Below, one piece after another: positions 36,301 to 37,658 of a stretch of 64,000 nt of DNA. A program made the position numbers and the translations under genes. Every line of letters starts with the position of its first letter. Positions within the stretch are counted from its first letter, which is position 1. Source of the DNA: Chitinophagaceae bacterium. GTDB lineage: Bacteria > Bacteroidota > Bacteroidia > Chitinophagales > Chitinophagaceae. The notes beneath the pieces are model-generated. The model saw only the letters and a program-made list of their open reading frames with translations, was not told where the DNA came from and searched no databases. Where the stretch lies: contig JAFMJI010000003.1 in NCBI GenBank assembly GCA_017853575.1, forward strand, positions 124,001 through 188,000, read 5' to 3'.

Positions 36301-36332
36301 TTTGGTAGAAAATAATCAGCTCATTAGATTTG
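36301..36332 (+). promoter_or_regulatory. Promoter of the asd leader
   Basis: TTTG at 36301-36304, exactly 20 bases, then TAGATTTG at 36325-36332, an exact match to the Bacteroidota TAnnTTTG element. Transcription would begin near 36336, only about 5-8 bases before the leader peptide ATG codons. Confidence 0.75.
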
Positions 36333-36340
36333 CATCCTCA

Positions 36341-36385
36341 ATGATGACGATAAAAAATACAAAAAAGAGCAAGAAACATTCCTAA
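36341..36385 (+). CDS. Candidate leader peptide of asd, lysine-rich
   Basis: 14 codons encode MMTIKNTKKSKKHS then TAA. Five lysines occur, in the pairs KK (36362-36367) and KK (36371-36376) plus one single. Met, Thr, Ile, Lys and Asn, all derived from aspartate, fill the first nine positions. The stop codon sits one base before the antiterminator strand. The product is probably not a functional protein: the translation process itself would sense charged tRNA. It is too short for ordinary gene calling. Confidence 0.7.
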   Translation: MMTIKNTKKSKKHS

Positions 36386-36386
36386 C

Positions 36387-36454
36387 GGAAGGTTGGTTCT
36401 CTTTTGTATATCAAATAAGTAACGACCTTCCAAATTTGGGAGGTCATTTTTTTT
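36387..36454 (+). promoter_or_regulatory. Attenuator of asd: alternative antiterminator and terminator stems
   Basis: GGAAGGTTG (36387-36395) can pair over 9 bases, one G-U included, with CGACCTTCC (36423-36431). That same segment is the 5' arm of the terminator. A ribosome halted at lysine codons leaves GGAAGGTTG free and the antiterminator can form; a ribosome at the leader stop codon would cover it and the terminator can form. These mutually exclusive structures are seen in the sequence; the response to lysine is inference. Confidence 0.7.
36424..36454 (+). terminator. Intrinsic terminator in the asd leader
   Basis: GACCTTCC (36424-36431) pairs with GGGAGGTC (36438-36445), one G-U included, around a 6-base loop, followed by eight T residues at 36447-36454. 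It ends 29 bases before the asd start. Confidence 0.8.
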
Positions 36455-36483
36455 AAATCACCCGAAAGGGCAAAAACGTAAAT

Positions 36484-37473
36484 ATGAAAGTAGCTGTAGT
36501 TGGCGCAACCGGATTGGTAGGTACAAAAATGTTACAGGTGTTGGAAGAAAGAAATTTTCCAGTAAATGAATTGATTCCTGTTGCATCTGAAAAATCTGTT
36601 GGCAAAGAAGTCAAATTCAAAGGGAAAGCTTTCAAGGTTGTGGGTATGCAAACGGCAATTGACATGAAACCAGCTGTAGCACTATTTTCGGCAGGTGGTA
36701 GCACCTCCACGCAATGGGCTCCATTATTTGCAGTAGCAGGCATTACAGTGATTGACAATTCATCTGCTTGGAGGATGGATCCATCAAAAAAATTGGTTGT
36801 TCCAGAAATCAACGCAGATGCATTGACCGCAGAAGATAAAATCATTGCAAATCCAAATTGCTCTACCATTCAAATGGTAGTTGCGTTGGCTCCCTTGCAT
36901 AAAAGATATAAGGCAAAGAGAATTGTTGTGAGTACTTATCAAAGTGTTACAGGAACTGGTGTGAAAGCCGTGAATCAGTTGATGAATGAACGCAAAGGAG
37001 TGCAAGGTGAAATGGCCTATGCATATCCAATTGATCTGAATGTCATTCCGCAGATTGATGTATTTCTCGACAATGGGTATACCAAAGAAGAGATGAAGAT
37101 GGTGAATGAAACCAAGAAAATTATGCGTGATGACAGCATACGAGTTACATCAACCACGGTTCGTATTCCGGTCATGGGAGGGCATAGCGAAAGTGTAAAT
37201 ATTGAGTTTGAAGAAGAATTTGATTTGGATGAAGTGAAGAAAATTCTTGCTGCTGCTCCTGGAGTTGTTTTGGTAGATGATCCATCCAAGCAGCAATATC
37301 CAATGCCAAAAGATGCACATGAAAAGGATGATGTATTTGTAGGAAGGTTGCGCAGAGACGAAACACAGTCAAAGACTTTGAATATGTGGATCGTGAGTGA
37401 TAATCTCCGCAAAGGTGCAGCTACGAATGCAGTGCAGATTGGGGAGTATTTGATGAGTAAGGGATTGATTTGA
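36484..37473 (+). CDS. asd: Aspartate-semialdehyde dehydrogenase
   Basis: 329 residues; reduces aspartyl phosphate to aspartate semialdehyde with NADPH, the branch-point step to lysine, threonine, methionine and isoleucine (and diaminopimelate). It starts with the Rossmann loop VAVVGATGLVGTKML, carries the active-site cysteine in NPNCSTIQM (Cys 126), and the later histidine in GGHSESVNIEF. Length and motif order are standard. The promoter lies about 150 bases upstream, with a leader peptide and attenuator between, so its transcription is probably governed by supply of aspartate-family amino acids. No other pathway gene is adjacent. Upstream is a divergent exported protein; downstream is convergent ligA. 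Confidence 0.96.
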   Translation: MKVAVVGATGLVGTKMLQVLEERNFPVNELIPVASEKSVGKEVKFKGKAFKVVGMQTAIDMKPAVALFSAGGSTSTQWAPLFAVAGITVIDNSSAWRMDPSKKLVVPEINADALTAEDKIIANPNCSTIQMVVALAPLHKRYKAKRIVVSTYQSVTGTGVKAVNQLMNERKGVQGEMAYAYPIDLNVIPQIDVFLDNGYTKEEMKMVNETKKIMRDDSIRVTSTTVRIPVMGGHSESVNIEFEEEFDLDEVKKILAAAPGVVLVDDPSKQQYPMPKDAHEKDDVFVGRLRRDETQSKTLNMWIVSDNLRKGAATNAVQIGEYLMSKGLI

Positions 37474-37488
37474 TTCTGAGAGATAAGG

Positions 37489-37647
37489 GACAAGGGACGA
37501 GGGACAAGGGACAAGGCAGTGAATAGCCAATTATTTGCTTATTGAAGTTTTTTAAATAGGCATACGAATTTATGTTAATTGATTAGTCGTATATAGTTTA
37601 ATCACCTGATAACTTTTCACCTCCTCCCTTGTCCCTCGTCCCTTGTC
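37489..37647. repeat. 23-bp inverted repeat built of GGGACAA heptamers
   Basis: The left arm at 37489-37511 and the right arm at 37625-37647 are perfect reverse complements, with 113 bases between. The arms consist of GGGACAA and GGGACGA units with a 7-base period. Located between convergent asd and ligA. Confidence 0.75.
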
Positions 37648-37658
37648 ACTTTTATACC

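Follow-up and report, generated by a model that had tools for sequence, protein, structure and literature searches.

The asd gene in the window (the whole 64,000-nucleotide stretch of a Chitinophagaceae genome analyzed here) is preceded by a compact leader at positions 36301-36483, which raises the question of how transcription of this gene might be controlled and which amino acid such control would sense. The first-pass annotation proposed ribosome-mediated attenuation in which Lys codons act as the sensor, and comparison with related genomes lends strong support to this proposal: the reading frame, the Lys codons, the antiterminator and the terminator are all conserved and coevolve. We consider it highly probable that the leader is a ribosome-mediated transcription attenuator that controls asd through charged tRNA-Lys.

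Layout of the asd leader and the proposed mechanism

The promoter, the ORF, the pairing arms, the terminator and its run of eight T were found, base for base, where the first-pass annotation had placed them; the one element that it missed is a pause hairpin that pairs the Lys codons. The parts of the leader and the regulated gene are as follows.

36301..36332, + strand: Bacteroidota sigma-A promoter (TTTG at 36301-36304, 20 nt spacer, TAGATTTG at 36325-36332)
36341..36385, + strand: leader peptide ORF MMTIKNTKKSKKHS (ATG at 36341, stop codon TAA at 36383-36385, 14 codons)
36357..36409, + strand: pause (1:2) hairpin, in which the Lys-codon strand 36357-36370 pairs with 36396-36409 (from folding and covariation)
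36387..36395, + strand: antiterminator 5' arm GGAAGGTTG, beginning one base past the leader stop codon
36423..36431, + strand: shared strand CGACCTTCC, the antiterminator 3' arm and terminator 5' arm
36424..36454, + strand: intrinsic terminator, GACCTTCCA-AATT-TGGGAGGTC followed by A and eight T
36484..37473, + strand: asd, aspartate-semialdehyde dehydrogenase, the regulated gene (ATG at 36484, 329 aa)

The identity of the asd product is established by NCBIfam equivalog matches (TIGR01296, 428 bits; NF011456, 446 bits). Past its 3' end, between asd and a convergent DNA ligase-like gene, lies a long inverted repeat of the GGGACAAGGGACGAGGGAC type, which may be a mobile repeat or may terminate transcription in both directions; its arms (window 37485-37516 and 37620-37651) are 32 nt long, share 91% complementarity and are separated by 103 nt.

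The leader ORF encodes five lysines, at codons 5, 8, 9, 11 and 12, which are the proposed sensor. The pause hairpin overlaps these control codons and, in the predicted fold, also sequesters the antiterminator arm GGAAGGTTG. The shared strand CGACCTTCC can pair with GGAAGGTTG over 9 bp, one of them G-U, or contribute to the terminator, in which GACCTTCCA (36424-36432) forms 9 bp with TGGGAGGTC (36437-36445) ahead of the eight T at 36447-36454; the antiterminator and the terminator are mutually exclusive. The leader RNA folds at -35 kcal/mol, compared with -22.5 +/- 3.3 in 200 dinucleotide shuffles (z -3.9), none of which was as good.

Under the proposed mechanism, RNA polymerase would start about 4 nt 5' of the leader ATG, and a ribosome would load on the near-leaderless 5' end of the transcript. 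When lysine is plentiful, the ribosome would reach the stop codon and cover GGAAGGTTG, the terminator would form, and transcription would end before asd. When lysine is short, a stall at the last Lys codons would open the pause hairpin and leave GGAAGGTTG free to capture CGACCTTCC, a pairing that would block the terminator and permit transcription of asd. Without translation, the pause hairpin would sequester GGAAGGTTG and the terminator would win. We infer translation of the leader ORF, stalling and read-through in vivo from the sequence.

The E. coli toeprint is located at +15 from the P site. With an E. coli-like footprint assumed, a ribosome stalled at Lys12 ends at 36386, just before the antiterminator arm, and a ribosome at the leader stop codon ends at 36395, the last base of that arm; when only the unmasked RNA is folded, the Lys12 stall yields the antiterminator and the stop codon position yields the terminator. 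Under the same assumption, stalls at Lys8 and Lys9 yield the antiterminator as well, and a stall at Lys11 yields the antiterminator as long as the 3' arm has yet to be synthesized and the terminator, by minimum free energy, once it is complete, so that the outcome at this codon would be kinetic. On this footprint, the control codons and the stop codon are placed such that stalling frees the antiterminator arm and completion of the peptide masks it.

The transcript also appears to be nearly leaderless, in agreement with the first-pass annotation. A -7 box of the form TAnnTT(T/C)(G/A) is located 4-15 nt 5' of the leader ATG in 163 of 174 leaders (5% in shuffles), and 140 of these 163 additionally carry TTTG at a 19-20 nt spacer. 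The Flavobacterium -7 box spans -12 to -5 relative to the start (PMC9723704), which would put the start of the asd leader transcript near 36337 and leave about 4 nt ahead of the ATG; with starts predicted in this manner from the -7 box, the 5' UTR before the leader ORF would be about 0-6 nt in most leaders. In Bacteroides, 5' UTRs shorter than 10 nt are rare (3.7%; PMC7366714). A known attenuator with a leaderless leader ORF is trpL (rnTrpL) of Sinorhizobium meliloti, as presented in the passages of PMC10117765 that deal with it; it resembles the asd leader in this respect but senses tryptophan, and no homology is claimed. In two relatives (L014 and L016, same genus), the promoter is retained, the asd ATG is positioned 7 nt past the -7 box, and the leader and terminator are absent, an arrangement that represents either a natural, precise loss of the leader or the ancestral state.

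Conservation, coevolution and control codons

The first-pass annotation had called for a comparison of asd upstream regions across Chitinophagaceae, and in this comparison the leader frame and the stems are conserved and the helices covary. The upstream regions of asd from related genomes contain the same parts in the same order, and a covariance model built on 46 leaders has matches in 201 of 296 family genomes, representing 78 of 103 genera, and none in about a third of the genomes. A short predicted leader ORF between the promoter and asd is kept in frame across the relatives, and the coding frame and architecture persist in about 170 distinct leaders, a count that is non-independent given that the leaders are mutually related. 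Among the 145 fetched loci in which the gene 3' of the leader matched one of four query genes, this gene was asd in 122, hisG in 13, dapA in 9 and trpE in 1; 11 further fetched loci were left unassigned. A class-level search produced matches in 28 of 247 genomes at E<=0.001, some of them to hisG leaders. The first leader detector missed several genuine leaders (L033, L036, L046, L051 and L053), and its negative calls outside the family are approximate. A search for asd in viral contigs produced distant matches only.

RNAalifold on the 46-sequence alignment recovered only 6 antiterminator pairs, since the loops shift and the structures exclude one another; own-versus-cross pairing energies and explicit pair counts were used instead. 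Each of the three helices pairs far better within than between leaders (z -13 for the pause hairpin, -12 for the antiterminator and -25 for the terminator, against 0.1 for a non-helix control), with the caveat that the permutation test and the pair counts remove the relatedness of the leaders only in part. For the terminator, 20 cells with changes in both partners were counted, compared to 5.6 in shuffles; among the 46 sequences, the pause pair 36358:36408, which involves the wobble base of a His/Asn codon, occurs 23 times as UA and 13 times as CG. Covariation in the antiterminator is modest since both partners are nearly invariant.

The three Lys columns of the 162 anchored asd and dapA leaders alternate freely between AAA and AAG and almost never contain AAC or AAT (AAA/AAG in 391 of 397 AA-initial codons). 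The position of the control codon is constrained as well: subject to the automatic choice of the antiterminator arm on which these counts hinge, 145 of 154 asd leaders, 8 of 8 dapA leaders and none of the 12 hisG leaders have a Lys codon 11-17 nt 5' of this arm; 11 of the hisG leaders have a His codon at that distance, and it is the last Lys codon that falls in this range in 136 of the 154 asd leaders (18 are outside). The first-pass annotation noted that the stop codon lies one base before GGAAGGTTG. This holds in the window but is only one of two conserved arrangements: in some leaders the stop codon starts 1-6 nt ahead of the start of the arm, and in most it starts 7-15 nt past it. In both, the last Lys codon keeps its distance from the arm, and it is this spacing that is conserved.

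A paralogous Lys leader is found before dapA in large-genome relatives (L152, L154, L157, L158 and others). These dapA leaders are convincing second copies that bear the same Lys peptide, for example, MQLIKKHTKRVKKHSVYREG and MQNIKKHTKQVKKRSIQGEG, with Val or Ser instead of Thr before the last Lys pair. DapA catalyzes the first step dedicated to lysine/diaminopimelate, and the presence of the same leader before its gene therefore points to lysine.

Within the window's own genome, other attenuators were sought with the covariance model only, and its weaker matches include the following two leaders. The leader MSVFLNKHHHHISPKR, containing HHHH, is followed by a terminator and hisG (G000:C10:7248-7379, minus strand, locus L162) and, judged from its layout, appears to be a clean case of a His attenuator. 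A candidate Trp attenuator precedes trpE (G000:C36:60278-60410, minus strand, locus L163): its leader MKLFNTNNGWHTIS contains only one Trp codon and is followed by the terminator GCCCCGAATTTCGGGGC. A script found no antiterminator arm in it, and, given also the single Trp codon, it serves as a weaker internal control than the hisG leader. Neither leader is recognized by Rfam. The DapA-family and aspartokinase-family genes of this genome, some of which are perhaps not DapA or LysC, have no such leader or terminator, and the Lys leader seems to be confined to asd there. The control codons match the pathway: Lys codons precede asd and dapA, and, in the family as in this genome, His codons precede hisG.

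Alternative readings of the leader

The reading that fares best next to a strictly lysine-specific sensor is a multivalent one, in which Lys, Thr and perhaps Met and Ile codons all count and asd answers any shortage downstream; it would refine rather than oppose the tRNA-Lys attenuator, and we regard it as possible but doubtful. In the E. coli thr leader, both Thr and Ile count. In the leaders analyzed here, Thr immediately precedes the last Lys pair (at -2 from the last Lys) in 78 of 154 asd leaders and is encoded by all four ACN codons (ACA/ACC/ACG/ACT, 26/26/14/12), so that it looks selected as an amino acid; it is found there in none of the 11 dapA leaders (p 0.0008 in a Fisher test on phylogenetically non-independent leaders, the dapA set being a small sample from few genera that includes three leaders added by hand). 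This Thr fits a role of asd in also serving threonine, although the fit is only suggestive. In the same vein, Met, Thr and Ile together comprise 24% of the residues in asd leaders, compared to 14% in dapA leaders and 16% in hisG leaders. ANN-rich codons, however, yield such residues for free, and in the asd leader of the window the -2 residue is Ser. The upstream Thr, at -5 from the last Lys, is nearly fixed as a codon (ACA in 94 of 111) and paired in the pause helix, which argues for RNA structure. The observation of the first-pass annotation that the first nine residues all belong to the aspartate family is correct as a description of the sequence but carries little weight as evidence, given that ANN codons give Ile, Met, Thr, Asn and Lys.

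A basic arrest peptide, KHTK(K/R)xKK, that stalls the ribosome on free lysine or another ligand and not on uncharged tRNA would account for the unusual constancy of the motif in the family (H in 110 and T in 111 of 162 asd and dapA leaders), and clustered basic residues slow ribosomes. Nevertheless, this reading is improbable: the His and Thr codons are nearly fixed and paired in the pause hairpin, and look as though they were held in part by RNA pairing; asd leaders of other families (MNISCMKRKMKKPLL, MIMDQHKKCGKKRFHNGEGC and MKMICSKKCMKKPVR) keep the Lys codons with the KHT motif lost; and before hisG the motif is replaced by HHHH at the same distance.

Still less probable is a constitutive attenuator or promoter-proximal terminator that senses no amino acid and contains an incidental ORF. 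A-rich sequence easily yields Lys codons, but such an origin is at odds with the near-exclusive use of A or G as the third base of these codons, with the change of the residue to His before hisG, and with a ruler that is held whether the stop codon precedes or follows the arm.

A lysine riboswitch or a protein-bound leader, either of which could be imagined from a long, conserved, structured leader ahead of a lysine-pathway gene, is hardly credible because there is no Rfam match at the gathering score, RF00168 was found in 0 of 149 family genomes and in 4 control genomes (under strict filters that weak riboswitches could escape), and the conserved structures are exactly the alternative hairpins overlapping an ORF. 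The first-pass annotation had likewise seen no L-box, and the RF00168 covariance model indeed produced no match in the asd leader; the Rfam leader families (Trp, His, Thr, Leu and Phe) gave none above the gathering score, and loose thresholds yielded sub-threshold chance matches only.

Relation to known attenuators

Ribosome-mediated attenuation is textbook knowledge for Trp, His, Thr, Leu, Ile/Val and Phe, whereas the L-box riboswitch or proteins are the usual explanation for control by lysine. With the trp, his, thr, leu, ilv and phe leaders of Proteobacteria, the asd leader shares an ORF with control codons, a pause hairpin, an antiterminator, a terminator and a biosynthetic gene downstream, as well as a placement of the control codons such that the stalled ribosome would just free the antiterminator arm. 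The first-pass annotation had already remarked on the resemblance to classical attenuators. The asd leader differs from the proteobacterial attenuators in the control residue (Lys), the gene (asd or dapA), the near-leaderless ORF and the Bacteroidota promoter.

In Bacteroidota, leader-peptide attenuation has been reported in general terms (PMC9723704, PMC7366714); the leader-peptide attenuators of Flavobacterium psychrophilum come from the same phylum, and the passages of PMC9723704 that deal with them name no lysine or asd leader. In S. meliloti, SEP5, with six Thr and three Lys codons, is a proposed leader peptide in the 5' UTR of an 'aspartate dehydrogenase' gene; in contrast to the asd leader, it is proteobacterial, conserved only in Sinorhizobium, Thr-dominated and, in the section of PMC10117765 devoted to it, described without structure analysis. 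The L-box (RF00168) provides RNA-level control of lysine-pathway genes in other bacteria (PMC1262725), but it is a ligand-binding RNA without an ORF, whereas the asd leader is ORF-based. In Actinobacteria, no lysine attenuator was found (PMC1262725). Our search, confined to the open-access literature, turned up no description of a lysine-codon attenuator; provisionally, the mechanism is known, and the lysine specificity and the lineage are apparently new.

More tentatively, the leaders might constitute a family-wide, near-leaderless attenuation regulon of Chitinophagaceae that is tuned for each gene, with Lys, and possibly Thr, read before asd, the gene of a branch-point enzyme, and Lys only before dapA, and that replaces the lysine riboswitch. 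A family-wide lysine-codon attenuator would fill a gap among the textbook attenuators and may explain how lysine synthesis is regulated in bacteria without a detectable lysine riboswitch. It would also show attenuation on an mRNA that is almost leaderless and too short at its 5' end for a Shine-Dalgarno sequence, and its natural variants, namely, the two stop codon positions, the relatives that lack the leader and the paralogous dapA copies, are a test bed for the codon-to-antiterminator ruler.
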